64,000 nt of DNA from Sphingomonas sp. UNC305MFCol5.2 (GTDB lineage Bacteria > Pseudomonadota > Alphaproteobacteria > Sphingomonadales > Sphingomonadaceae): NCBI RefSeq assembly GCF_000712135.1, contig NZ_JOOE01000002.1, positions 186,001 to 250,000 of the forward strand, in the 5' to 3' direction. The notes beneath the pieces were generated by a model, which was not told the DNA's origin, searched no databases, and was given only the letters and a program-made list of their open reading frames with translations. Positions within the stretch are counted from its first letter, which is position 1. Each line of letters starts with the position of its first letter. Positions 1 to 38,516 of this stretch are shown here, piece after piece. The position numbers were made by a program, and so were the translations under genes.

Positions 1-777
1 TATGACGTAGCGTTCGATGGGTTCGCACCCGAGGCCTTGCGCGGCAAGCCCGCCGAGCGCCAGGCCTGGGCAGTCGAGCAACTCCATCTCGCCGCCAAAG
101 CGAGCCGGCGGCTGGGGCTGAACGCGCACGCGACCTTCTCGGGGGCGCTCGCCTGGCCCTATCTCTATCCGTGGCCGCAGCGCCCGGCTGGGCTGGTCGA
201 GGAGGCATTCGGGGAACTGGCAAAGCGCTGGCGTCCGATCCTCGACGCCTTCGAGGAACAGGGCGTCGACGTCGCCTATGAGATCCACCCCGGCGAGGAC
301 CTGCACGACGGCGTGACCTTCGAGCGGTTCCTGGCGGGCGTGGACAACCACCGCCGTGCCAACATCCTCTATGATCCCAGCCATTACGTGCTGCAGGCGC
401 TCGATTATCTGGCGTTCATCGACATCTATCACGAGCGGATCAAGATGTTCCACGTCAAGGACGCGGAGCTCAACCCGACCGGGCGCTCGGGCGTCTATGG
501 CGGCTTCCAGGACTGGGTCGACCGCCCCGGCCGCTTCCGCTCACTCGGCGACGGCCAGGTCGATTTCGGCGGGATTTTCTCGAAGCTGACACAGTACGGA
601 TACGAAGGCTGGGCAGTGCTCGAATGGGAATGCTGCCTCAAGCATCCCGAAGACGGGGCGCGTGAGGGCGCGCCTTTCATCGAAGCGCACATGATCCGCC
701 GCGCGGACAAGGCTTTCGACGATTTCGCGGGCGGCAACGATCCGGGGCTCAATCGCAAGTTGCTGGGGCTGACCTGA
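1..777 (+). CDS. Sugar phosphate isomerase/epimerase-like TIM-barrel protein, 5' truncated
   Basis: The frame is open from base 1 to the stop at 775-777, so the gene begins upstream of the window; the TTG at 37 is only the first in-window start-like codon. The protein resembles the xylose-isomerase-like TIM-barrel family (IolE, hydroxypyruvate isomerase and sugar epimerases). Visible family features are YEIHPGED, ILYDPSHY, MFHVKDAE and LEWEC, which carry the acidic and histidine residues that normally bind the divalent metal. Whether it has a signal peptide cannot be seen. It sits 43 bases upstream of an MFS transporter gene in a same-strand sugar-oxidation cluster, so isomerisation or epimerisation of an imported or keto sugar is a reasonable inference. 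The exact substrate is unknown. Confidence 0.85.
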   Translation, partial: YDVAFDGFAPEALRGKPAERQAWAVEQLHLAAKASRRLGLNAHATFSGALAWPYLYPWPQRPAGLVEEAFGELAKRWRPILDAFEEQGVDVAYEIHPGEDLHDGVTFERFLAGVDNHRRANILYDPSHYVLQALDYLAFIDIYHERIKMFHVKDAELNPTGRSGVYGGFQDWVDRPGRFRSLGDGQVDFGGIFSKLTQYGYEGWAVLEWECCLKHPEDGAREGAPFIEAHMIRRADKAFDDFAGGNDPGLNRKLLGLT

Positions 778-820
778 CGACACGACGCGGGCAAGAACGA
801 TAAGGGAGGGGAGCCAAGAA

Positions 821-2122
821 ATGGCCACGACATTGAACAAGGGACGGCTGTTCTGGCTGGGCGTGCTGGCCCTGTTCACCGCCGCGTCGAGCCTTGCGAT
901 CCGCGGCGCGATCGCCAGCGGGCTCAAGGCCGAATGGATCGATCCGATCGCTCCGCTGCAGGCCGGCGAACTGCTCGCCGCCGCATTGGGCGCGGCGTTC
1001 CTCAGCTTCGCGATCACGTTGTTCGTCGCCAGCGCGCTGCTCGATCAGATCGGCATGAAAAGGTGCCTGCTGGGCGCGGGCTTCTGCTTCATCTTCGGCC
1101 CGCTGCTGATCGTCACTGCGGGCCATCTCGCGACGGGCATGACGGTCTATACGATCGTCTGGCTCGGCATGCTGCTCAGCGGCATCGGCTGGGGGCTGAC
1201 CGAGGCGGCGATCAATCCGCTGACCGCGCAGCTCTATCCCGAGGACACCACGCACCGGCTCAACGTGCTGCACGCCTGGTTCCCCGGCGGCATCATCGTC
1301 GGCGGGCTGGTCGGCTTCTTCCTCTCGGCGACCTTGCCGTGGCAGGGCATCATGGCGCTGGTGATGATCCCCGCCGTCGCGACCGTCGTGATCGCGGCGA
1401 CCACCACTTTCCCACCGCCTTTGCGCAGCGAAACCGGCGTGAGCTTCGGCGAGATGGTGAGCGAAGTGTTCCGCCGCCCCAGTTTCTTCATCTGGTTCGG
1501 CGCGATGTTCCTCACCGCTGCGTCCGAACTGGCCCCCGGCCAGTGGATCGACGTCGCTCTGTCGAACCGCGTCGGCATGCGCGGCATCCTGCTGCTCGTC
1601 TATGTCAACGCGCTGATGTTCGTGTTCCGCCATTTCGCGGGCCGGCTGGCGAGCAAGATCTCGAATCCCGGATTGCTCTGGGTATCGAGCCTGCTCGCCG
1701 CGATCGGGCTGTTCATGCTGAGCCAGGCGCAGTCGCCGGTGGCGGCGGTCCTCGCCTCGACGGTGTGGGGGCTCGGCGTCTGCGTGATGTGGCCGACGAT
1801 GCTCGCTTCGGTCGCCGAACGCTATCCGCGCGGCGGATCGTGGGCGATGGGGCTGGTCGGATCGGCGGGGGCGCTCTCCAGCTTCTTCGTGCTCCCGCTG
1901 CTGGGCGCGATGTTCGACAAGGCCAAGATCGAGTTCGCCGGCGGGCCCGAAGCGTTCGCGAAGCTGGCCGGCGCGGCGAAACTGGCGGTCGAGGATGCGG
2001 CGGCGTCGGTATCGTTCCAGCGGCTGGCGGTCCTGCCGGTCGTCCTGCTGGCGGTGTTCGGCTTCATCTGGCTGCGTGAGCGCGGCAAGTCGCGTGCCGT
2101 CCTCGCGGGCGAAGCGGCGTGA
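821..2122 (+). CDS. MFS transporter, probably for a sugar or sugar derivative
   Basis: 433 residues with about 12 hydrophobic segments spread over the whole length, the size and shape of a major facilitator superfamily permease in the inner membrane. The ATG at 821 follows a strong purine-rich ribosome binding site (GGGAGGGGAG). Its stop overlaps the start of the next gene (GTGA at 2119-2122), which indicates translational coupling. Position between a cytoplasmic-type sugar isomerase and exported sugar-modifying enzymes suggests that it imports the sugar or keto-sugar released in the periplasm. Substrate cannot be read from sequence. Confidence 0.85.
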   Translation: MATTLNKGRLFWLGVLALFTAASSLAIRGAIASGLKAEWIDPIAPLQAGELLAAALGAAFLSFAITLFVASALLDQIGMKRCLLGAGFCFIFGPLLIVTAGHLATGMTVYTIVWLGMLLSGIGWGLTEAAINPLTAQLYPEDTTHRLNVLHAWFPGGIIVGGLVGFFLSATLPWQGIMALVMIPAVATVVIAATTTFPPPLRSETGVSFGEMVSEVFRRPSFFIWFGAMFLTAASELAPGQWIDVALSNRVGMRGILLLVYVNALMFVFRHFAGRLASKISNPGLLWVSSLLAAIGLFMLSQAQSPVAAVLASTVWGLGVCVMWPTMLASVAERYPRGGSWAMGLVGSAGALSSFFVLPLLGAMFDKAKIEFAGGPEAFAKLAGAAKLAVEDAAASVSFQRLAVLPVVLLAVFGFIWLRERGKSRAVLAGEAA

Positions 2123-3027
2123 GGCTGACCCGGCGTTCCGTGCTGGCCGCGAGTGCCGCCACCGCGGGTGCGGCGACGATGAGTCGCGCCGCGCCCGGCC
2201 AGAACGCGGCGCGCTTCTCGCTCGGCTTCGCGCCGCACGAAGGCAGCTTCAAGAGCCGGGGCAGCCGGCTCGAGCAGATCGCCTTTGCCGCCGATCAGGG
2301 CTTCACTGCGTGGGAAGACAATGAGGCGGCAAGCCGGCCCGTCGCCGAGCAGACCGCGATGGCCCGCGCGCTTCAGCAGCGCGGCATGACGATGGGCGTC
2401 TTCGTCGCGAGCATGCCCAAATGGGGCGAATTCCGCCCGTTGCTCGGCGGCAACGACGATGCCGAGCGTCAGGCTTTCCTGGCCGACATTCGCGCCTCGA
2501 TCGACGTCGCCAAGCGATTGAACGTCAAATGGATGACGGTCGTCACCGGCTTCCTCGATCGCAAGCTGCCGGTCGAGATCCAGACCGCCCGGATCATCGA
2601 TACGATGCGCCGCGCCGCCGAGATCGTCGAGCCGCATGGCCTCGTCATGGTGATGGAGCCGCTGAACACGCTGGTGGATCATCCAAACGTATTCATGCAG
2701 ACCATCCCGCAAGGCTTCGCGGTGTCGACGGGCGTCAACAGCCCGGCCGTGAAGGTGCTGGCGGATCTCTATCACGCGCAGATCCAGGCCGGGAATCTGA
2801 TCAACACGCTGCAGAGCTGCTGGGACGAGATCGCCTATATCCAGTTCGGCGACAATCCCGGCCGCAAGGAGCCGAGCACCGGCGAGGTCAATTATCGCAA
2901 CGTGGTCCGCTGGTTGCGCGCGAAGAAATATGCCGGCGTGATCGGCATGGAGCATGGAAATTCGATAGAGGGACGCGCTGGCGAAGAGCGGCTGATCGCC
3001 GCTTATCGCGAGATTGACGCGGCATGA
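2119..3027 (+). CDS. Exported sugar isomerase/epimerase-like TIM-barrel protein
   Basis: 302 residues with a GTG start overlapping the previous stop. The N terminus (TRRSVLAASAATAGAAT) is a twin-arginine type signal followed by a small-residue h-region, so export through Tat to the periplasm is likely. The rest matches the hydroxypyruvate isomerase / xylose-isomerase-like barrel, with MVMEPLNTL, a DLYHAQ stretch, IQFGDNPGR and GMEHGNS as probable metal and substrate regions. Relatives of this fold act as 3-keto-glycoside or C-glycoside cleaving enzymes as well as isomerases. The neighbouring dehydrogenase and DUF1080 protein make the former role plausible, but that is inference. Confidence 0.82.
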   Translation: MRLTRRSVLAASAATAGAATMSRAAPGQNAARFSLGFAPHEGSFKSRGSRLEQIAFAADQGFTAWEDNEAASRPVAEQTAMARALQQRGMTMGVFVASMPKWGEFRPLLGGNDDAERQAFLADIRASIDVAKRLNVKWMTVVTGFLDRKLPVEIQTARIIDTMRRAAEIVEPHGLVMVMEPLNTLVDHPNVFMQTIPQGFAVSTGVNSPAVKVLADLYHAQIQAGNLINTLQSCWDEIAYIQFGDNPGRKEPSTGEVNYRNVVRWLRAKKYAGVIGMEHGNSIEGRAGEERLIAAYREIDAA

Positions 3028-3038
3028 GGGAGGAACGA

Positions 3039-3866
3039 GTGAAGCGTATCGCATGGGGCGCCGCGATTGCGGTAGCCGTGGCAGCGGGAAATCCCGCCGT
3101 CGCGCAGGAGAAGCCGGGCTTCAAGGACACGCCGATGCTGCCCGGCGGCAAGTGGCACGTTCATGATTCCGACCGGCCCTACCCCGATGTGGTCACGCCG
3201 GCTGCAGTGCCGGGGGGGGCGCCCTCGGACGCAGTAGTGCTGTTCGACGGCAAGACGCTCGACGCATGGCAGCCCCAGGCGACGCCGTGGATCCTCAAGG
3301 ACGGCGTGGTGACTTCGCAGCCGCGCGCCGGCGGCGGCGGCGAGAATGCGCTGGTCAGCAAGCAGAGCTTCGGCGACGTCCAGCTCCATCTGGAGTTCCG
3401 CTCGCCAAACCCGCCGACCAAGACCTCGCAGGATCGCGGCAACAGTGGCATCTGGTTCATGCAGCGCTACGAGATCCAGATCCTCGACGGCTATCAGAAC
3501 CCGACCTATGCCGACGGCACCGTCGGCGCGATCTATGGCTGGAAGCCGCCGCTGGTGAACGCGTCGCGCAAGCCCGGCGAATGGCAGAGCTACGATGTGG
3601 TCTTCGAGCGCCCGCATTTCGGTGCCGACGGCAAATTGCTGCGCCCGGCCTATATCACCGCGTTCCTGAACGGCGTGCTGGTGCAGAACCGCCAGCCTTG
3701 GCTGGGCGGCACGATCTGGCGCAAGCTCGGCACCTACCAAGCGCATGCCGACGCCGCGCCGATCCAGCTCCAGGACCATAATTCACCGGTTTCGTTCCGT
3801 AACATCTGGGTGCGCCCGCTGCCCGAAGCGGCGGCGAGCTACGACTTTGAGGGTACCGTGAAATGA
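3039..3866 (+). CDS. DUF1080 (3-keto-disaccharide hydrolase-like) secreted protein
   Basis: About 275 residues from the GTG at 3039. An ATG at 3024 in the same frame overlaps the previous stop, but GGGAGG at 3028-3033 lies five bases before the GTG, and the GTG start puts VKRIAWGAAIAVAVAAG at the front as a clean signal peptide ending near VAQ. The mature part is a DUF1080 concanavalin-like domain: VLFDGKTLDAWQ at its start, then DRGNSGIWFMQRYEIQILD, the hallmark of this family. Characterised members hydrolyse 3-keto-disaccharides, so this protein probably acts after glycoside oxidation. Its stop overlaps the next ATG by four bases. Confidence 0.86.
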   Translation: MKRIAWGAAIAVAVAAGNPAVAQEKPGFKDTPMLPGGKWHVHDSDRPYPDVVTPAAVPGGAPSDAVVLFDGKTLDAWQPQATPWILKDGVVTSQPRAGGGGENALVSKQSFGDVQLHLEFRSPNPPTKTSQDRGNSGIWFMQRYEIQILDGYQNPTYADGTVGAIYGWKPPLVNASRKPGEWQSYDVVFERPHFGADGKLLRPAYITAFLNGVLVQNRQPWLGGTIWRKLGTYQAHADAAPIQLQDHNSPVSFRNIWVRPLPEAAASYDFEGTVK

Positions 3867-4423
3867 TTATCGATCGCAGAGACGCGCTGGCCGGAATTGT
3901 CGCGATGTTCGGTGCAAGCCTGTTCGCGCCGATCGCGCGCGCAGCGGGTGCGCAGATGACGCCGATCAGCGACGGGCCGCCCAGCGCGCCCGTGTTCACC
4001 GCACAGCAGCGCGCGCTGATGACCGCGCTCAGCGAGCGGGTGATGCCGACCACCGACACGCCCGGGGCGATCACCGCCGGGGTGCCCGCCTTTATCGAGA
4101 AATTGCTCGCCGACTGGGCGGCGCCCGGCGATCGCAAGCCGATCCTCGCCGGGCTCGACGCGATCGAGACGCGCAGCCAGGCCGATTACAAGGTCGCGGC
4201 CGACAAGGCGACACCCGCGCAGCAGGACGCACTGCTGACGCTGGCGATGGAAGACAAGATTCCCGGCGGCAAGGATTTCTTCGAGAAGTTCCGTCAGCTC
4301 GTCATCACCGGCTATTTCACCTCGGAAGTCGGCATCACCCAGGAGCGCGAATATCTGCCCGTGCCCGGGCGGTATGACGGCGCCTATCCCTATTCGAAGG
4401 TCAACAAGGTGTTTTCGTCATGA
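3863..4423 (+). CDS. Gluconate 2-dehydrogenase subunit 3 family protein (Tat-type partner of the GMC flavoprotein)
   Basis: 186 residues, ATG overlapping the preceding stop (ATGA). The N terminus IIDRRDALAGIVAMFG is a twin-arginine-like export signal. The body (FTAQQRALMTALSERVMPT, then a C-terminal YLPVPGRYDGAYPY) matches the gluconate 2-dehydrogenase subunit 3 family. In FAD-dependent glucose and gluconate dehydrogenases this small subunit is required for export and maturation of the flavoprotein, which has no signal of its own. The GMC gene lies two genes downstream, also without a signal peptide, which fits that arrangement. Confidence 0.86.
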   Translation: MIIDRRDALAGIVAMFGASLFAPIARAAGAQMTPISDGPPSAPVFTAQQRALMTALSERVMPTTDTPGAITAGVPAFIEKLLADWAAPGDRKPILAGLDAIETRSQADYKVAADKATPAQQDALLTLAMEDKIPGGKDFFEKFRQLVITGYFTSEVGITQEREYLPVPGRYDGAYPYSKVNKVFSS

Positions 4424-5259
4424 TGATCAGCCGACGGCAATGGATGGCGGGCGGTGCCGCGCTCGCGACGACGCTGGCGGCCGCACCGCTGGTGGCGAAG
4501 GGCCTCAAGCCCAAGCCGGTCGGGCTTCAGCTCTACACCGTGCGCGAACTCTTCTCGAAGGACCCGATGGGCACGCTCGAGAAGGTGGCGAAGATCGGCT
4601 ATCGCGAAGTCGAATATGGCGGTGGCGGCTATGACAAGATGGATCATGCCGCGCTCCGCAAGACGATGGACCGGCTGGGGCTCAAATCGCCCTCGCTGCA
4701 CATCGGCTACGAGGCGCTGAGCGGCGATTTCGCCGGCTCGGTGAAGATGGCGAAAACGCTGGGCGCCGATACGGTGATCCTGCCGTACATGACCGCCGAG
4801 CAGCGCAATGCCGAGAGCTGGAAGGCCGCGGTCGCCAATTTCAACCGCTGGGCCGAACAGCTCAAAAAGGCCGGGCTCGACTTCGCCTATCACAATCACG
4901 ATTTCGAGTTCACGACCAAACCCGATGGCCGCAGCCTGTACGACATGCTGCTCGCCGATGCCGACCCTGCCCTGGTCAAGCTCGAGCTCGACCTGTTCTG
5001 GGTAATCGCCGCCGGCGAGGACCCCAAGGCGATCATCAAGCGGAACCCAGGCCGCATCTATGCCTATCACGTCAAGGATCGCACCGCCGACGGCAAGATG
5101 ACCAGCGTCGGCAAGGGCGTGATCGATTTCGCCGACATCTTCACGCTCAACGGCACGGCCGGCGTGAAGCATTTCTACGTCGAGAACGATCAATCGCCCG
5201 CGCCGTATCTTCCCGACATCCAGACCAGCTTCGCGACGCTCAGCCGTCTGCGCGCGTAA
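4420..5259 (+). CDS. Exported sugar isomerase/epimerase-like TIM-barrel protein
   Basis: 279 residues; ATG at 4420 overlaps the preceding stop and a second ATG follows at 4423. MMISRRQWMAGGAALATTLA is a clear Tat-type signal. The barrel region shows VGLQLYTVRELF, YHNHDFEF, LELDLFW and YAYHVKDR, typical of the AP-endonuclease-2-like sugar isomerase family. It is inserted between the genes for the small and the flavin subunits of the dehydrogenase, so its job is probably tied to the product of that oxidation. It is the third member of this fold in the cluster and diverges strongly from the other two. The reaction is unknown. Confidence 0.85.
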   Translation: MMISRRQWMAGGAALATTLAAAPLVAKGLKPKPVGLQLYTVRELFSKDPMGTLEKVAKIGYREVEYGGGGYDKMDHAALRKTMDRLGLKSPSLHIGYEALSGDFAGSVKMAKTLGADTVILPYMTAEQRNAESWKAAVANFNRWAEQLKKAGLDFAYHNHDFEFTTKPDGRSLYDMLLADADPALVKLELDLFWVIAAGEDPKAIIKRNPGRIYAYHVKDRTADGKMTSVGKGVIDFADIFTLNGTAGVKHFYVENDQSPAPYLPDIQTSFATLSRLRA

Positions 5260-5283
5260 CCCAGTATTCGAGGATCATTAGAC

Positions 5284-6960
5284 ATGGCCGACAAGTTCGA
5301 TGCGATCGTCATCGGCTCCGGAGTGAGCGGTGGATGGGCGGCGAAGGAATTGACCGAAAAGGGCCTCAAGGTCCTGATGCTCGACCGTGGCGTCATGGTC
5401 GAGCATGGCGAGGATTATGATTATGACGGCAAGCCGGCATATGAGATCCCCGCCCGCGACATGATGCCCAAGGCGCTGCTCGACAGCGATTATTTCATCG
5501 CCAAATACGGCTATGTCTCGCCCGGTAGCCGGAAATATTACAACAACGACCGGCTCAATCCGTACGCCTATGACGAGGGCGAGAAATTCTACTGGATCCG
5601 CCCCGGCGCGGTCGGTGGCAAGTCGCTGATCTGGGGGCGCTGGAGCTTCCGCTGGTCGCCTGAGGATTTCGAAGCCAACAAGCGCGAAAATGTCGGGATC
5701 GACTGGCCGATCCGCTATGAAGACCTGGCGCCGTGGTACGACTATGTCGAGAAGTATATCGGCGTGTCGGGCTCGCGCGAGAATCTGCCGCAGCTGCCCG
5801 ACAGCCAGTTCCAGCCGCCGATTCAGATGAACATCGCCGAGAAATGGGTGAAGGAGCGGCTCGAGGCGACTTCGCCCGGCCGCAAGCTGATCAACAGCCG
5901 CATGTCCAACATGACCGAGGACAAGGAGGCGCAGGGCCGCACCAAATGCCAGTTCCGCAACCAGTGCGGGCGCGGCTGCTCGTTCGGTGCCTATTTCTCG
6001 ACCCAGGCGGTCACTCTCCCCGCCGCCCGTGCCACCGGGCGGCTGACGCTCCGCTCCGACGCGGTGGTCTCCAACCTCGAATATGATCCCAAGACCAAGA
6101 AGGTCACCGGCGTCCGCGTGGTCGATACGAAGACGAAGCAGGCCGAAATCATCCCCGCCCGCCTCGTGTTCCTCTGCGCCTCGGCGATGGCGTCGACCCA
6201 GATCCTGATGAACTCGCGGATCCCGGGCACCGGCAAGAGCCATTTCGACACCAGCGGCACGCTGGGCCGCTACGTGATGGACCATATCTTCCGTGTCGGC
6301 GTCTCGGGCGACATCCCCGGCATGACCGAATATATCGAATATGGCCGGCGCCCGAGCGGCGTCTATGTCCCGCGCTTCCGCAACGTCGGCGGCGAGGAAG
6401 GCGTGGGCTTCCGCCGCGGTTATGGCTATCAGGGCGGCGCGCGGCGCGATCCGGCCTATCCGCAGGGCTTCGGCGCGTCGATGAAGCAGGGCATGCGCCA
6501 ATATGGCGGATGGAAGTTCGGCATGGGCGCGTTCGGCGAATGCCTGCCCTATGAAGACAATCGCGTCAGCCTTCACCCCGACAAGGTCGACCGGTTCGGC
6601 ATTCCGTTGATGCGCTTCGACGTCACCTTCCGCGACAACGAGATCAAGATGATGGACGATGCGCGGACCGAGGGCGAGAAGATGCTCAAGGCGGCCGGCC
6701 TGCTCAACGTGACGAGCTATCACGGTGAGCACGTTCCCGGCGACGCCATCCACGAGATGGGCGGCGCCCGCATGGCGAACGATCCGCGGCAATCGGTGCT
6801 CAACAAATGGAGCCAGGCGCACGACGCGGCCAATCTGTTCGTCACCGACGGCGCGCAGATGGCGTCGATCTCGTGCGTGAACCCCTCGCTGACCTTCATG
6901 GCGTTCACCGCGCGCGCCGCGGACTATGCGGTCAAGCAGCTGAAGGCGGGCGCGATCTAG
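5284..6960 (+). CDS. GMC family FAD-dependent sugar/glycoside dehydrogenase
   Basis: 558 residues. An N-terminal flavin-binding motif (IGSGVSGG) begins at about residue 10, and the C-terminal GMC region contains IHEMGGARM and CVNPSLTF, which should hold the catalytic His and Asn. Cys222, Cys228 and Cys232 form a C-x5-C-x3-C pattern like the one that binds the 3Fe-4S cluster in the catalytic subunit of bacterial FAD glucose dehydrogenase. There is no signal peptide, so the protein probably reaches the periplasm with the Tat-type subunit 3 encoded at 3863. Relatives include the 3-dehydrogenases of lactose and other glycosides. No cytochrome partner gene follows; the next gene is convergent. Confidence 0.88.
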   Translation: MADKFDAIVIGSGVSGGWAAKELTEKGLKVLMLDRGVMVEHGEDYDYDGKPAYEIPARDMMPKALLDSDYFIAKYGYVSPGSRKYYNNDRLNPYAYDEGEKFYWIRPGAVGGKSLIWGRWSFRWSPEDFEANKRENVGIDWPIRYEDLAPWYDYVEKYIGVSGSRENLPQLPDSQFQPPIQMNIAEKWVKERLEATSPGRKLINSRMSNMTEDKEAQGRTKCQFRNQCGRGCSFGAYFSTQAVTLPAARATGRLTLRSDAVVSNLEYDPKTKKVTGVRVVDTKTKQAEIIPARLVFLCASAMASTQILMNSRIPGTGKSHFDTSGTLGRYVMDHIFRVGVSGDIPGMTEYIEYGRRPSGVYVPRFRNVGGEEGVGFRRGYGYQGGARRDPAYPQGFGASMKQGMRQYGGWKFGMGAFGECLPYEDNRVSLHPDKVDRFGIPLMRFDVTFRDNEIKMMDDARTEGEKMLKAAGLLNVTSYHGEHVPGDAIHEMGGARMANDPRQSVLNKWSQAHDAANLFVTDGAQMASISCVNPSLTFMAFTARAADYAVKQLKAGAI

Positions 6961-6965
6961 GCCGG

Positions 6966-6994
6966 AGTCGCCCCCGTCCTAGACGGGGGCGACT
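6966..6994. terminator. Convergent hairpin between the GMC gene and otsA
   Basis: Two perfect 13-base arms (AGTCGCCCCCGTC and its complement) flank a three-base loop at 6979-6981. The loop is exactly the otsA stop codon read on the minus strand, so the last four otsA codons form one arm. There is no T-run on either side, so efficient intrinsic termination is uncertain, but the position between two convergent genes fits a bidirectional terminator. Confidence 0.55.
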
Positions 6995-8385
6995 GCCGCG
7001 CGTTCAGGCTGCGGCGCGTATTCGGCGAGCTCGGCGATGAAGCGGCGCATCCACCACGTCACATCCTCGCGCTCGACGTTCCGCATCAACGGCAACCATC
7101 GCGCGATGCGCTCTTCGTTTGGCATCGCCAGCGCCGCAGCGATCGCATCGGCCACGTCTTCGGCGCTGTAGGGATTGACGAGCAACGCCTCTCGAAGCTG
7201 CTCCGCTGCCCCCGCGAAGCGCGAAAGGATCAGCACGCCCGGATCGTCGGGATCCTGCGCGGCGACATATTCCTTGGCGACGAGGTTCATCCCGTCGCGC
7301 AGCGGCGTCACCAGCCCGACGCGCGCAGCGCGGTACATCGCCGCCAGTTCGTCGCGCGGATATCCCTGATTGACGTAGCGGATGGGAACCCACTCCGCGC
7401 TCGCATAGGCGCCGTTGATGCGGCCCGACACCGCTTCGAGCGAGGCGCGGATCTCCTGATAGCTGTTGACCTCGACGCGTGACGGCGGGGCGATCTGGAG
7501 CAGGAATACCTGTTCGTGCTTCTCGGGATGCGCGGCGAGAAAGCGCTCGTAAGCGAGGAAGCGCTCCTGAAGGCCCTTCGAATAATCGAGCCTGTCGACT
7601 CCGATCAGCATCGCGCGCCCGTTGGCGCTTTCCAGCATCGCCTCGTGCGCGGCGCGCGCGGCGGGATCGTCGGCGGCGCGGCGGAAGCCGGCGGCGTCGA
7701 TCCCGATCGGACAGGCGATCAGCTTCACCACGCGGCCGGCGACGTGGATGATGCCGTCCGATCCGACGAACATCCCGAGCTCGCTTTGGACATAATCGAC
7801 GAATGCCTCGAGCGAGTCCGCGGTCTGGAAACCGATCACGTCATACGCGAACAGCGACTTGACCAAAGCCGCGTGGCTCGGAAGCGTCAGCAGCAGCCGG
7901 CGGGGCGGCCACGGGATGTGCAGGAAGAAGCCCATCCGGTTGCGGCATTCGCGCCGCCTGAGCGCCAGCCCCAGCGGAATCAGATGATAGTCGTGCACCC
8001 AGATCAGATCGTCCAGGTCGATCAGCGGCCGTAGCGTATCGGCGAACCGTGCATTCACCCGGGCATAGCCGCCCGCGAAGCTGCGCTCATATTCCGCCAG
8101 GTCGATGCGGTAATGGAAAAGCGGCCACAGCGTGCGGTTGGCATAGCCGTTATAATATTCGTCAGTATCCTGCGGCTCGAGGTCGATCGTCGCCGTCGTG
8201 ACGCCTTCGTTGCGCTGATAGTCGATCGCGCCGGTGAAGCGCTCGACTTCCTCGCCCGACCAGCCGAACCAGATCCCGTCGCTTTCGCGCAGCGCCGCGG
8301 CCAGCGCCACCGCGAGCCCGCCCTGATTGACGTTGCCGCCATTTGGCGGCGAGACGCGGTTGGATATCACGATCAGCCGGCTCAT
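6979..8385 (-). CDS. otsA: Alpha,alpha-trehalose-phosphate synthase (UDP-forming)
   Basis: 468 residues, close to the 474 of the Escherichia coli enzyme. It transfers glucose from UDP-glucose to glucose 6-phosphate to give trehalose 6-phosphate. GT20 landmarks are ISNRVSPP at the N terminus, WVHDYHLIPL, GVDRLDYSKGL and PLRDGMNLVAKEY near the C terminus. The start at 8385 gives MSRLIVISNR, the usual beginning; the upstream part of the frame is the antisense of the GH15 gene. Start and GH15 stop overlap by four bases, so it is the last gene of an otsB-GH15-otsA operon. Confidence 0.95.
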   Translation of the reverse strand: MSRLIVISNRVSPPNGGNVNQGGLAVALAAALRESDGIWFGWSGEEVERFTGAIDYQRNEGVTTATIDLEPQDTDEYYNGYANRTLWPLFHYRIDLAEYERSFAGGYARVNARFADTLRPLIDLDDLIWVHDYHLIPLGLALRRRECRNRMGFFLHIPWPPRRLLLTLPSHAALVKSLFAYDVIGFQTADSLEAFVDYVQSELGMFVGSDGIIHVAGRVVKLIACPIGIDAAGFRRAADDPAARAAHEAMLESANGRAMLIGVDRLDYSKGLQERFLAYERFLAAHPEKHEQVFLLQIAPPSRVEVNSYQEIRASLEAVSGRINGAYASAEWVPIRYVNQGYPRDELAAMYRAARVGLVTPLRDGMNLVAKEYVAAQDPDDPGVLILSRFAGAAEQLREALLVNPYSAEDVADAIAAALAMPNEERIARWLPLMRNVEREDVTWWMRRFIAELAEYAPQPERAAVAPV

Positions 8386-10178
8386 CGGATCGAGCTCCAC
8401 GGCCGACTCAGCAGCACCGCGCAGTTGATCATGCCGACCAGCGAATAGGTCTGCGGATAATTGCCCCAGAGCTCGCCGGTCAACGGATCGATATCCTCGG
8501 ACAGCAAACCCGCCGCGGTCCGGCGCGAGAGCATTTCCTCGAACAATTCCCTCGCGTCCGCGATCCGGCCGGTCGCGTGCAACGCTTCGATCAGCCAGAA
8601 GGTGCAGACGTTGAACGCCGTCTCGGGCAGCCCGAAATCGTCCTCGGTCGCATAGCGCAGCATGTGGCTGCCGCGCCTGAGCCCCTCCTCGACCGCGAGC
8701 AGCGTCCCGCGGAAGCGCGGATCGTCGGGCGGCAGGAAACGAAGATCGAGCAGCTGGATCAGGCTGGCGTCGAGATCGTCGCCGCCGAAGGTCGCCGAGA
8801 GCCGCGAGGTGTCCTCGCGCCACGCGGATTGCTCGATGCGGACGCGGATGCGATCGGCGCGGTCCTGCCAGAAGGCGGCGCGTTCGGCGAGCCCGAGCTT
8901 CGCCGCGGCATTGGCCAGCCGATCACACGCCGCCCAGCACATCGCGACCGAATAGGTGTGGACGTTGCTCTTGGTACGCAGTTCCCACAATCCCGCATCG
9001 GGCTTGTCATGGACTTCCCAGGCACGGTCGCCGATCGCCTCCAGCGCCTCGAAATCGGAAATGCCGCCCATCCGGAACAGCCGCTGATCGAAGAAGCTCT
9101 GGGTGTTCGACAGCACGATCTGGCCATAGGCATCGTGCTGGATCTGCGCATAGGCCTGGTTGCCGACCCGCACCGGTCCCATGCCGCGATAGCCGCTGAG
9201 CCCGGGCGCCTCGCGCTCCTCGATATGCGCCTCGCCGCCGACGCCGTAGAGCGGCTGGATATGCCCGCCTCGGGCATTGTCGACGATGTTGCGCAGATAT
9301 TCGAGATAGGTTTCCAGCACGTCGAGCGCGCCCAGCCGGTTGAGCGCCTGGACGGTGTAATACGCGTCGCGGATCCAGCAGTAGCGATAGTCCCAATTGC
9401 GCTGCGAACCGGCATGCTCGGGGATCGAGGTGGTGAGCGCGGCAACGATCGCCCCGGTCTCCTCGTGCTGGCACAACTTGAGCGTGATCGCACTGCGGAT
9501 CACTGCCTCCTGCCATTCCAGCGGAGTCGCGAGCCCGCGCACCCATTCGCGCCATTCCTGCGCGGTGCGATCGAGCATCGTCTCGACTGCGACACGAATG
9601 TCATCGGCGAAGCTCTCGTCCGGCCCGAGGAAGAAATGGAGGGGGCGCTCGACGCGGAACAGCCGTTCGTGCTCGATCCAGCCAATCGGCGCGGTGGTGC
9701 TCAGCCGCAGGACGGTGTCGGCGAGCAGATAGCGGATATGGTTCGATCCGCGCGTCGTCGCCGCGTCGCTCGCACCCCAGTCGCGCGCCGGGCGCAGGCG
9801 GACGCGGATCCGCGGCGAGCCGATCACGGGACGGACGATGCGCGCGAACGCCACCGGCCGGTACGTGCGCCCGCTGCGCCGGAAGCGCGGGCAGAAATCA
9901 ATCACTTCCACGGCATTGCCGTCGCGGTCGGTATGGCGCGTCACCAGGATCGGCGTGTTGTCCAGATAATGCTGCGCCGTGTCGACGCAGTCCTCGAGGT
10001 CGATTTCCCAGAAGCCGCGTGCGCCTTCCGCCGCGCGAGGCGCCGCGTCGAGCAACGACGAGAAAGCAGGATCGCCGTCGACGCGCGGCACGCAGCCCCA
10101 GACGAAGCGCCCGTTACGGTCGACCAGCGCGGAAACCTGGCAATTGCCGATCGGCCAGAGGTCCAGCGTCGCGGTCAT
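8382..10178 (-). CDS. Glycoside hydrolase family 15 protein (glucoamylase/trehalase type)
   Basis: 598 residues. GH15 features include the N-terminal beta-sandwich beginning LDLWPIGNCQVSALVD, and the (alpha/alpha)6 barrel with RNWDYRYCWIRDAYYTV, PDAGLWELR and FGLPETAFNVCTFW, which should carry the two catalytic glutamates. Family members cleave alpha-1,4-glucans or, in some actinobacterial and archaeal cases, trehalose. Four-base overlaps at both ends place it between otsB and otsA, so a trehalase or a trehalose-linked maltooligosaccharide hydrolase is likely. No signal peptide is seen, so it should be cytoplasmic. Confidence 0.9.
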   Translation of the reverse strand: MTATLDLWPIGNCQVSALVDRNGRFVWGCVPRVDGDPAFSSLLDAAPRAAEGARGFWEIDLEDCVDTAQHYLDNTPILVTRHTDRDGNAVEVIDFCPRFRRSGRTYRPVAFARIVRPVIGSPRIRVRLRPARDWGASDAATTRGSNHIRYLLADTVLRLSTTAPIGWIEHERLFRVERPLHFFLGPDESFADDIRVAVETMLDRTAQEWREWVRGLATPLEWQEAVIRSAITLKLCQHEETGAIVAALTTSIPEHAGSQRNWDYRYCWIRDAYYTVQALNRLGALDVLETYLEYLRNIVDNARGGHIQPLYGVGGEAHIEEREAPGLSGYRGMGPVRVGNQAYAQIQHDAYGQIVLSNTQSFFDQRLFRMGGISDFEALEAIGDRAWEVHDKPDAGLWELRTKSNVHTYSVAMCWAACDRLANAAAKLGLAERAAFWQDRADRIRVRIEQSAWREDTSRLSATFGGDDLDASLIQLLDLRFLPPDDPRFRGTLLAVEEGLRRGSHMLRYATEDDFGLPETAFNVCTFWLIEALHATGRIADARELFEEMLSRRTAAGLLSEDIDPLTGELWGNYPQTYSLVGMINCAVLLSRPWSSIR

Positions 10179-10900
10179 GCTGACATTTGCTCCAGCCAGG
10201 CGCGCACCGCCGCCGGGCTCTCCAGCAGATAATGCGCGCCGGTCTCGCCGGGTTTGCCGACGAAGATGCCGGCGCCGCCCAGCTCGGTGACGGCCTCGAA
10301 GCCGTTCTCGTCGGTGCGATCGTCACCGATGAAGACGGGCATCGTCCCCTTCATCGGTGCGAGCCGCATCATGCGCCGCACCGCCACGCCCTTGTCGCCC
10401 CCGGCCACCCGCAGCTCGATCATCATCTTGCCCTCCTGCAATTCGAGTCCGAGATCGCGCGCGACGTGCCATGCCAGCTCGACCGCCTCCTTCTCCGCTT
10501 CGGGACACAGGCGGTAATGCAGCGCCACGCCGTAGCTCTTCTCCTCGACGAGTGCTCCGGCAAAGCGATCGGCGAACGCGCGCATGCGTTCAGCCGCCTG
10601 ATCGAGCGTCGGCGGACGGTGCGGCTGGGCGGAAATGCCCTGCCAGCGATGCTCGCAGCCATGGCTCCCCGACAATGCAATTTCCTGCGCGACCGGTCCC
10701 AGTATCGCGTCGAGCTGTGCGATCGAGCGACCGCTGATCACTGCCACTCGTCCGCCGAGCCTGAGGTTCAGCCGGGCGAGGAGCGCGCGCAACTCCGCGT
10801 CGGCGACGACGTCGTCGGGCCGGTCCGCCAGATCGACCAATGTCCCGTCGAAATCGAGAAAGAGACTCGCATTAGCCAGCAACGACGCTGGAGGTGGCAA
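10175..10900 (-). CDS. otsB: Trehalose-phosphatase
   Basis: HAD-superfamily phosphatase that removes the phosphate of trehalose 6-phosphate. Motif I is FLDFDGTLVDLADRPD, motif II lies in VISGRSIAQLDAIL, and the last motif is VFIGDDRTDENGFEAV. I prefer the TTG start at 10900 (about 241 residues), which has AGGA five bases upstream and gives the usual short lead before DFDGT. A GTG at 10948 in the same frame would add 16 residues but has no ribosome binding site. First gene of the operon, behind an EcfG-like promoter at 10988-11012; its end overlaps the GH15 start by four bases. Confidence 0.93.
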   Translation of the reverse strand: MPPPASLLANASLFLDFDGTLVDLADRPDDVVADAELRALLARLNLRLGGRVAVISGRSIAQLDAILGPVAQEIALSGSHGCEHRWQGISAQPHRPPTLDQAAERMRAFADRFAGALVEEKSYGVALHYRLCPEAEKEAVELAWHVARDLGLELQEGKMMIELRVAGGDKGVAVRRMMRLAPMKGTMPVFIGDDRTDENGFEAVTELGGAGIFVGKPGETGAHYLLESPAAVRAWLEQMSA

Positions 10901-10987
10901 TAGTGTCCTGGTCCGACCGATCGAGATGTTACGCCCCTTCCAAAGCACGAGGCGCAGCGCGAGTACCGCCCGCGCGCCCTTTCAGGG

Positions 10988-37763: not shown

Positions 37764-38516
37764 GTGGACATGTTAGCGTTAACCAAGCCGCAAGCGAAAC
37801 CATTTCGCATCACCACTTCCCGCCCTATCCTGCGCCCCGTGCCGCCCGACATCGCCTCCATTCTCCGCGCCCTCGAAACGCATGCCGACCCCGCGTTTCG
37901 CGACACGATGGGTCCGCGCTACGGCATCGTCACGGCGGACCGCGTGCTGGGCGTGCCGATGGCGAAGATCCACGCCGTCGCCAAACCGCTCGGCCGCGAC
38001 CCCGAGTTCGCCGAGGCGCTGTGGCAAACCGGCGTCTACGAGGCACGCATGCTCGCCTGCATGGTCGACGATCCCGCCACGGTGACGACCGAACGCATGG
38101 ACCGCTGGCGCGCCGATTTCGACAATTGGGCAGTCACCGACACTTTGTGCTTCAAGCTGTGGGACCGCACCCCGCACGCCTTCGCGATGATCGATCGCTG
38201 GGCGACGCTCGAAGGCGAGTTCGGCCGACGTGCGGCGTTCGTCCTGCTCGCCAGTTGCGCGCTGCACCGCAAGGGCGCGGACGCCGATTATCTCGCCCGA
38301 TTGCCCCTGATCCATGCCGCGGCGACCGACGAGCGCAATTTCGTCAAGAAGGGCGTCAATTGGGCACTGCGTGCGATCGGCGGCAGAAAGAGCCCCGCCC
38401 TGCGCACCGCCGCCCGCGATCTCGCCGCCACTCTCGCCGCCTCACCCGACAGAACCCGGCGCTGGATCGGCAAGGACGCACTGCGCGCATTCGCGAAGGC
38501 CGATGCCGGGGATTGA
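37764..38516 (+). CDS. DNA alkylation repair protein, AlkD-like
   Basis: Up to 250 residues; starts at GTG 37764, ATG 37770 or GTG 37839 are all possible, and the last gives the conserved PDIASILRALE front. HEAT-like helical repeats of the AlkD/AlkC family are visible: VLGVPMAKIHAVAK, VYEARMLACMVDDP, WAVTDTLCFKLWD and FVKKGVNWALRAIG. AlkD-type enzymes excise alkylated purines without flipping the base. The gene is monocistronic; a GTTC-N7-GTTC motif lies 33 bases beyond its stop, not before its start. Confidence 0.86.
   Translation: MDMLALTKPQAKPFRITTSRPILRPVPPDIASILRALETHADPAFRDTMGPRYGIVTADRVLGVPMAKIHAVAKPLGRDPEFAEALWQTGVYEARMLACMVDDPATVTTERMDRWRADFDNWAVTDTLCFKLWDRTPHAFAMIDRWATLEGEFGRRAAFVLLASCALHRKGADADYLARLPLIHAAATDERNFVKKGVNWALRAIGGRKSPALRTAARDLAATLAASPDRTRRWIGKDALRAFAKADAGD

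Follow-up and report, generated by a model that had tools for sequence, protein, structure and literature searches.

Genes at the locus

The window, by which we mean the whole 64,000-nucleotide stretch of Sphingomonas sp. UNC305MFCol5.2 that was analysed, opens with an operon-like run of seven genes on the forward strand (positions 1-6960). From the list of open reading frames, the gaps at the junctions are, in order, +43, -4, -4, -4, -4 and +24 bases, so a 4-base overlap is found at four of the six. The first-pass annotation of seven one-strand genes with mostly 4-base overlaps was therefore confirmed, as were the domains it had named. The Pfam matches, all above the curated cut-offs, were AP_endonuc_2 (three times), MFS_1, 3keto-disac_hyd, Gluconate_2-dh3, GMC_oxred_N and GMC_oxred_C. 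The operon begins upstream of window base 1, where the window edge cuts the first gene, and its gene order was seen again in the loci of relatives. The features are listed below, with upstream neighbours in L002 coordinates.

<1..777, forward strand: HYD, 3' part of the gene for a 347-aa TIM barrel of the 2-hydroxy-3-keto-glucal hydratase type (AP_endonuc_2; phmmer match to 8ro4); the complete gene begins at L002:17734, 267 bases upstream of window base 1
821..2122, forward strand: MFS carrier (Pfam MFS_1, E 8.1e-19)
2119..3027, forward strand: HYI, hydroxypyruvate-isomerase-like TIM barrel with a twin-arginine N-terminus (AP_endonuc_2; TIGR03234; fold)
3024..3866, forward strand: DUF1080a, 3-keto-disaccharide hydrolase family, signal-like N-terminus (PF06439, E 1.1e-41; 4qhz, E 9.8e-53)
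3863..4423, forward strand: SUB3, gluconate 2-dehydrogenase subunit 3-type protein with a twin-arginine N-terminus (PF13618, E 5e-34)
4420..5259, forward strand: OGE, 3-keto-O-glycoside eliminase-type TIM barrel, predicted to be exported (AP_endonuc_2; 8bvk, E 1.2e-25)
5284..6960, forward strand: GMC, glucoside 3-dehydrogenase-type large subunit that lacks a signal-like start (GMC_oxred N and C)
L002:17316-17708: cytochrome c gene, between 685 and 293 bases upstream of window base 1
L002:15990-17189: Gfo/Idh oxidoreductase gene, divergent, beyond the cytochrome c gene
L002:15157-16041: second DUF1080 gene (DUF1080b), beside the Gfo/Idh gene

Inspection of the N-termini by eye showed twin arginines together with a hydrophobic stretch in the barrels starting at 2119 and 4420 and in subunit 3. 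The first barrel had no signal-like start, in agreement with the earlier description of two exported barrels. A cytochrome c gene and a regulator had been suggested as genes to look for upstream; the former was found, and none of the Pfam-scanned neighbours could be recognised as a regulator.

The stretch between the Gfo/Idh gene and the cytochrome c gene contains a LacI-like palindrome. It had 14 forward and 10 reverse matches genome-wide, many of them at the same places, the motif being nearly self-complementary; the reversed control had one of each. When up to 2 mismatches were allowed, it was missing from all 11 of the loci L033-L043, and across the 80 named loci it matched 8 times, in 8 different loci, compared with 7 matches in shuffled copies; the match in L044 was about 8 kb from the nearest detected gene. 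Because of its absence from L033-L043 and its shuffle-level count, the palindrome was not taken as a control element. For the upstream TonB receptor and PepSY genes, no match in the 80 named loci reached 50 bits, and they were left out of the system. A trehalose link through the downstream otsA-GH15-otsB genes was also rejected, as homologues at E 1e-20 were present in 1 of the 80 loci (L045), and these genes were taken as chance neighbours.

Components of the proposed glycoside pathway

By sequence, the first barrel is of the hydratase type and matches an enzyme of reported function, with 252 of 345 aligned residues (73%) identical to the solved 2-hydroxy-3-keto-glucal hydratase 8ro4 (phmmer, E 1.4e-178). 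The barrel at 4420-5259 is a candidate OGE-type eliminase. It matches 8tct, 8tcd and 8tcs in addition to 8bvk, and carries the His/Asp/His/Glu metal site and catalytic His of a 3-keto-glycoside eliminase. All eight metal-site and catalytic residues of AtOGE, as listed in PMC10628242, are kept in OGE (8/8), and since they fall on the same numbers of the 8bvk chain, 8bvk is presumably AtOGE. The identity of OGE to 8bvk is only 33% (73 of 223 aligned residues), too low to distinguish eliminase activity from a combined lyase/hydratase activity. The extra barrels had been described as lacking established roles, which no longer applies to two of the three, HYD and OGE, and still applies to HYI.

By homology, a C3-dehydrogenase gene is present with its electron-transfer partners, as GMC, subunit 3 and cytochrome c. 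The solved structures nearest to GMC in sequence are fructose and glucose dehydrogenases, not a glycoside 3-dehydrogenase. Three aligned Cys (222/228/232) are common to GMC and fructose dehydrogenase 7w2j (E 1.9e-35), and these, together with H490 and N533, were invariant across 21 aligned sequences. SUB3 was present in all 12 of the closest named loci, had no match to solved structures at E 0.1, and is proposed to be the carrier subunit for GMC export. The Gfo/Idh neighbour has three Gfo/Idh domain matches and a homologue in 10/12 closest named loci, and is the predicted 3-keto-glucose reductase of the pathway.

As neither HYD nor the Gfo/Idh reductase has a signal-like start, hydration and reduction would be cytoplasmic, and the MFS carrier would act between the periplasmic and cytoplasmic steps. 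The system, first read as periplasmic, is on account of these two enzymes probably so only in part.

We surveyed 119 genomes of the family, taking GMC as present at an identity of 46% or more. HYD (E 1e-60 or better) was found in 21 of the 22 genomes with GMC and in 0 of the 97 without it; in 20 of the 21 its distance to such a GMC was at most 12.6 kb. This bears out the claim that a gene content for C3 oxidation and glycoside cleavage is kept with GMC, and synteny across Sphingomonadaceae supports the glycoside oxidation-cleavage reading. The one genome with GMC and without HYD was G083; in G103, HYD adjoins a second GMC copy (50%), not the 80% copy. Among the 12 closest named loci, OGE was found in 11, HYD in 10, DUF1080a in 8, the MFS carrier in 4 and DUF1080b in none. 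Import by the MFS carrier and the DUF1080 step are therefore not fixed parts. Two of the 12 had neither HYD nor the Gfo/Idh gene: L041, on a contig of 5.2 kb, and L044, where OGE and the cytochrome c gene are missing as well. When loci were grouped by GMC identity, HYD was present in 0 of 3 at 61-64% and in 32 of 65 at 54% or less.

Based on these sequence comparisons, we consider, with a probability of roughly four in five, that the locus encodes a compartment-split, non-hydrolytic degradation of glycosides by oxidation, cleavage, hydration and reduction. This estimate covers these four steps jointly; import and the role of HYI stand outside it. Periplasmic GMC, exported with the Tat-type subunit 3, would oxidise the C3-OH of a glycoside and pass electrons to the upstream cytochrome c. 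The resulting 3-keto-glycoside could then be cleaved in the periplasm by OGE, through beta-elimination to the aglycone and 2-hydroxy-3-keto-glucal, by the DUF1080 protein(s), or by both, and the MFS carrier may bring the keto-sugar (2-hydroxy-3-keto-glucal or 3-keto-hexose) into the cytoplasm. There, HYD would hydrate 2-hydroxy-3-keto-glucal to 3-keto-glucose, which the divergent Gfo/Idh enzyme would reduce to glucose. With two barrels matching HYD and OGE enzymes, the locus fits the published oxidation-elimination-hydration-reduction route. Routes of this oxidation-elimination kind have already been described in other bacteria, and work by Nasseri (Nature, 2024) reportedly describes broad-specificity alternative glycan breakdown in gut bacteria with C3 oxidation, keto-lyase and hydratase steps.

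Alternative readings and related systems

DUF1080 fits as a second cleavage option beside elimination. It could instead be the main cleavage enzyme, hydrolysing 3-keto-glycosides directly in the way proposed for lactose use in Caulobacter, with OGE acting on some aglycones only and 3-keto-hexose, not keto-glucal, crossing the inner membrane. We regard this as a doubtful alternative. DUF1080a does lie within the operon, the second copy by the Gfo/Idh gene is 48-53% identical to copies in two Caulobacter loci, and a DUF1080 gene is important for Caulobacter growth on lactose, according to PMC9007349. However, OGE is kept in 11/12 of the closest named loci, compared with 8/12 for DUF1080a and 0/12 for DUF1080b, and the hydratase, needed only with elimination, is found in 10/12.

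It is improbable that GMC oxidises a free sugar or polyol and that the barrels are true sugar isomerases. The nearest solved GMC structures would favour this, but the hydratase and eliminase homologues work on 3-keto-glycosides or their products (PMC10628242), and the occurrence of the hydratase follows that of the GMC gene (21/22 against 0/97 genomes). Specialisation for plant C-glycosides is very improbable, even though C-glycosides are also among the substrates oxidised by the flavoenzyme GlycDH, which has a homologue in the Agrobacterium operon (PMC10628242). The genome had no match to PF19906, the C-glycoside eliminase beta subunit, and neither did 14 control genomes, which gives this absence little weight; OGE has His158 at the position of AtOGE His132, where C-glycoside eliminases carry Glu (PMC10628242). 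Of the plant O- or C-glycosides suggested previously, O-glycosides fit, and C-glycosides gained no positive support. The preferred pathway of oxidation and elimination would have O-glucosides or galactosides of broad range as its likely substrates.

The closest known systems are Agrobacterium GlycDH-OGE-HYD-Gfo and Caulobacter lacABC-DUF1080. The locus has a flavin dehydrogenase, OGE- and HYD-type barrels and a Gfo/Idh reductase in common with the GlycDH-AtOGE-AtHYD-Gfo operon of Agrobacterium tumefaciens. For that operon, AtOGE has been shown to carry out the elimination, the evidence on the hydratase is preliminary, and the reduction step is attributed to the Gfo enzyme (PMC10628242). L105, an Agrobacterium MAG locus taken as this operon from its content (HYD, GFO, OGE, GMC, SUB3 and CYTC), has subunit 3 and cytochrome c as here. 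The window adds DUF1080 proteins, the MFS carrier and HYI, in a different order; HYI and DUF1080a had no match of 50 bits in 21.7 kb of L105.

In Caulobacter, lacABC and a DUF1080 gene are reported to be important for growth on lactose, and the lactose/salicin system has dehydrogenase subunits near DUF1080 proteins, as here (PMC9007349). The comparison was made through Caulobacter loci L070 and L071, not the C. crescentus cluster, and their GMC is only 49% identical. OGE, Gfo/Idh and HYD types are likewise present in both; L070, from a MAG, contains OGE, GFO, HYD, CYTC, DUF1080b, GMC and SUB3. HYI had no match of 50 bits in either (8.4 and 11.8 kb scanned). The levoglucosan pathway LgdA-LgdB1-LgdB2-LgdC of Bacillus smithii runs through the same four reactions, from oxidation through elimination and hydration to reduction, and likewise has two isomerase-like proteins and a reductase of the Gfo/Idh family (PMC7676230). 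The dehydrogenase at the locus described here is instead of the GMC flavoprotein type, accompanied by subunit 3 and cytochrome c, and the cleavage enzymes look exported.

The hydroxypyruvate-isomerase-like barrel

TIGR03234 was matched by all 25 aligned HYI homologues. The window copy scored 125.9 bits, below the curated cut-off of 353.45, and naming it a hydroxypyruvate isomerase was rejected on this basis. Among the fold matches listed, the best were 3ngf (Z 31.1) and 1k77 (Z 30.9), which we take to be of the hydroxypyruvate / 2-oxo-tetronate isomerase type, followed by E. coli YcjR (6wn6, Z 27.1), a TIM barrel deposited as a 3-keto-D-glucoside 4-epimerase. As 6wn6 scores about 4 Z units lower than 3ngf and 1k77 and also falls behind them in E-value, HYI was not assigned to the YcjR type by closest match; it is 17% identical to YcjR and has an export-signal-like start. 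No OGE-type structures were among the best 50 fold matches listed, an absence that excludes nothing. E180, D216, H219, G248, R249 and E278 were invariant in 25 sequences.

In relatives, the HYI gene is often directly before a DUF1080 gene, and in one relative without the GMC gene the two form an overlapping pair, suggesting that HYI and DUF1080 act together. From its sequence, HYI is a candidate keto-sugar isomerase or epimerase. It may act on a periplasmic keto-sugar, most likely by moving the carbonyl or epimerising an adjacent carbon. Our tentative proposal, which is plausible but rather less than an even chance, is that HYI represents a new keto-glycoside isomerase or epimerase of the periplasm, either interconverting 2-keto and 3-keto forms or epimerising non-gluco 3-keto-glycosides. 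In the open-licence papers searched, no link of hydroxypyruvate isomerase to keto-glycosides or DUF1080 was found.

As an interconverter, HYI would rescue a spontaneously formed 2-keto form, the spontaneous appearance of which was observed for a C-glycoside in PMC13273386. The same paper calls the change from 3-keto to 2-keto effectively irreversible, so rescue would require cleavage to draw the reaction back, which argues against this version. As an epimerase, HYI could allow many hexosides to be funnelled to glucose by one OGE/DUF1080-HYD-Gfo route.

For the sphingomonads, the full oxidation-elimination gene set is present and often kept together, in genes that are otherwise named uninformatively as isomerase-like, subunit 3 or DUF1080. 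Within it, HYI is singled out as a conserved, unassigned route protein, predicted to be exported, that is suitable for direct assay.

Layout of the unit and its upstream genes

Bases 1-6960 of the window (G000:C2:186001-250000; source genome G000, 4.24 Mb) had been described in the first-pass annotation as seven genes on one strand with assigned domains, and both points were borne out: all seven lie on the + strand, with 4-base overlaps at 4/6 junctions, and Pfam matches agree with the domains claimed. The cytochrome c gene that it proposed to look for upstream of base 1 is present, and the unit is completed by genes on L002, the stretch upstream of the window (window position = L002 position minus 18000).

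L002:15157-16041, divergent, second DUF1080 protein (DUF1080b)
L002:15990-17189, divergent, Gfo/Idh oxidoreductase (GFO)
L002:17316-17708, cytochrome c (CYTC), 130 aa, one CxxCH site
L002:17734, full start of HYD, the first barrel, which ends at window 777, +
821-2122, +, MFS carrier (MFS)
2119-3027, +, hydroxypyruvate-isomerase-like barrel (HYI)
3024-3866, +, DUF1080 protein (DUF1080a)
3863-4423, +, dehydrogenase subunit 3 (SUB3)
4420-5259, +, eliminase-type barrel (OGE)
5284-6960, +, GMC dehydrogenase (GMC)

A LacI-like palindrome lies between GFO and CYTC (L002:17200-17213) and another at window 37771-37784; the motif is commoner genome-wide than its reversed control, and none was found in L033-L043, the 11 closest named loci among the best 80 of at least 589 relatives. 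Just downstream of the operon, on the opposite strand (window 6979-10948), are genes for trehalose-6-phosphate synthase, a GH15 protein and trehalose phosphatase, with homologues in only 1/80 named loci (best 80 of at least 589 relatives).

Conservation with the dehydrogenase

The expectation that neighbours are conserved with GMC in relatives was upheld in a survey of 119 family genomes, in which GMC was counted at ≥46% identity and near full length and HYD at E 1e-60 or better. GMC was found in 22/119; HYD occurred in 21 of these 22 vs 0 of the other 97 (Fisher p 1.9e-22, which overstates the evidence as the genomes are related). The two genes are 1.8-12.6 kb apart in 20/21, the remaining one having them on different contigs of a fragmented genome; in G103, the GMC near HYD is a second copy at 50% identity. 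In the eight genomes with GMC at ≥76%, OGE was present at ≥63% in 8/8 and HYI at ≥70% in 7/8 (0/111 others).

The named loci are the best 80 of at least 589 candidate relatives that passed confirmation. The window order, from divergent GFO through CYTC, HYD, MFS, HYI, DUF1080a, SUB3 and OGE to GMC, is kept in L033 and L036, and also in L035, where GFO is at the contig edge.

Table. Loci with each gene, by GMC identity (best 80 of at least 589 relatives; tblastn at ≥50 bits; short contigs counted; one locus rounding to 54% is in the last row)
GMC identity; loci; SUB3; OGE; CYTC; GFO; HYD; HYI; DUF1080a; MFS; DUF1080b
≥73%; 12; 12; 11; 11; 10; 10; 10 (nine at ≥69%, one at 36%); 8; 4; 0
61-64%; 3; 3; 0; 1; 0; 0; 0; 1; 0; 0
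≤54%; 65; 43; 18; 3; 32; 32; 16; 22; 10; 6

The closest named GMC relative among the matches listed is from Sphingopyxis italica (91% identity). GMC residues 6-556 align with fructose dehydrogenase, with three cysteines in common (C222, C228 and C232), whose counterparts there hold a 3Fe-4S cluster. Across 21 sequences, the window's own and those of 20 relatives (46-83% identity), these three residues, H490 and N533 never vary. As GMC has no signal-like start and SUB3 begins with a twin-arginine stretch, the two would be exported as a complex, judging from the known dehydrogenase type.

A separate, smaller dehydrogenase-DUF1080 unit lies elsewhere in G000, beside a DoxX gene (L113:10724-14954; G000:C1, about 1507723-1511953): it consists of a second GMC, 35% identical, a subunit 3 of its own and a DUF1080 gene. 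At L113:15291-18248 there is an NrsF-family gene, then an MbnB/TglH/ChrH-family RiPP-modification gene and a DUF2063 gene. At L114:8787-17112 (G000:C3, about 420786-429111), a two-DUF1080-domain protein adjoins two Gfo/Idh genes, an ApbE gene and a TonB receptor.

HYD, OGE and the probable site of cleavage

HYD matched 8ro4 (E 1.4e-178; 252/345 aligned residues identical), a structure with the deposited name 2-hydroxy-3-keto-glucal hydratase, and OGE matched 8bvk (E 1.2e-25; 73/223). The deposited name of 8bvk is 'Xylose isomerase' only; we take it to be AtOGE because all eight AtOGE residues share that chain's numbering. According to PMC10628242, AtOGE binds its metal through His132, Asp163 and His189, with Glu233 as a weak ligand; His134 is catalytic, and His132, His66, Glu39 and Glu161 form a shifted metal site. 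All of these are kept in OGE (8/8: His132, Asp163, His189, Glu233, His134, His66, Glu39 and Glu161 correspond in turn to H158, D191, H217, E255, H160, H94, E65 and E189). The same paper assigns hydration to the second Agrobacterium barrel, on preliminary evidence, and reduction to the Gfo enzyme. The putative roles of HYD and OGE are assigned by homology.

Among close loci, the OGE relatives of 10 and the HYI relatives of 9 have signal-like N-termini, nearly all twin-arginine, and the Agrobacterium OGE copy (L105) also has a signal-like one. They are absent from HYD relatives and from GFO starts that look correctly chosen. This pattern, read from script-chosen start codons of which several are clearly wrong (e.g. 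L035 DUF1080a, L040 SUB3, L037 and L040 GFO), suggests that glycosides would be cleaved outside, with hydration and reduction inside.

HYI and the kind of pathway

HYI matched the hydroxypyruvate isomerase model TIGR03234 at 125.9 bits, below its cut-off of 353.45. Matches to the model were obtained for 25/25 sequences of alignment A2 (window HYI and 24 of 27 homologous stretches found); E180, D216, H219, G248, R249 and E278 are invariant (n=25). Paired glutamates of this kind serve as acid and base in the superfamily. The predicted structure (mean pLDDT 86.8; residues 1-29 low) ranked 3ngf (Z 31.1) and 1k77 (30.9) first, then 6wn6, the 3-keto-D-glucoside 4-epimerase YcjR, at 27.1, tied with many sugar 3-epimerases. 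At E 1e-45, HYI was found in 6/398 phylum genomes of a wider draw, all 6 in the family.

DUF1080a directly follows HYI in 7/9 named loci with HYI at ≥69% (best 80 of at least 589), and none was found in L034 or L037, both with such an HYI; in L040 the DUF1080a after HYI matched in two pieces. In five further loci with HYI at ≥43% (L115-L119), it follows in 3 and is located elsewhere in L116 and L117 (43-46%). The L115 pair (L115:8149-9917, 4-base overlap) is surrounded by genes for GH43, alpha-galactosidase and sulfatase proteins, and the 18 kb of this locus gave no match to GMC, HYD or OGE; its genome, G047, has an HYI copy at 46%, no GMC or HYD genes at the family survey thresholds, and no GMC match at E 0.001. 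Close copies of both genes are absent from L120 and L042, and in the Bacteroidota loci L063, L079 and L080 (HYI 46-49%) they are not adjacent. In the alphaproteobacteria, the link of HYI to DUF1080a is thus no weaker than its link to the dehydrogenase. Because of this pairing HYI is a candidate periplasmic keto-glycoside isomerase or epimerase, a role we consider possible, if on balance doubtful. L118 carries an enlarged, rearranged version (4453 to beyond 15491) in which HYI, GMC and DUF1080a are each matched twice.

PMC9007349 presents Caulobacter fitness data that mark a DUF1080 gene as important on lactose, and lacABC as important on salicin and raffinose; earlier work cited there found that lactose use requires lacABC, and hydrolysis of 3'-ketolactose is proposed. 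The levoglucosan route of PMC7676230 has the four chemical steps that are proposed for the window system. The glycoside oxidation-and-cleavage reading is partly supported; its statement that the roles of the barrels are not established fails for HYD and OGE, by homology, and holds for HYI. The substrates are most likely O-glycosides of broad range, and the system is a sphingomonad example of an already known kind of pathway, with HYI its one part without an assigned role.
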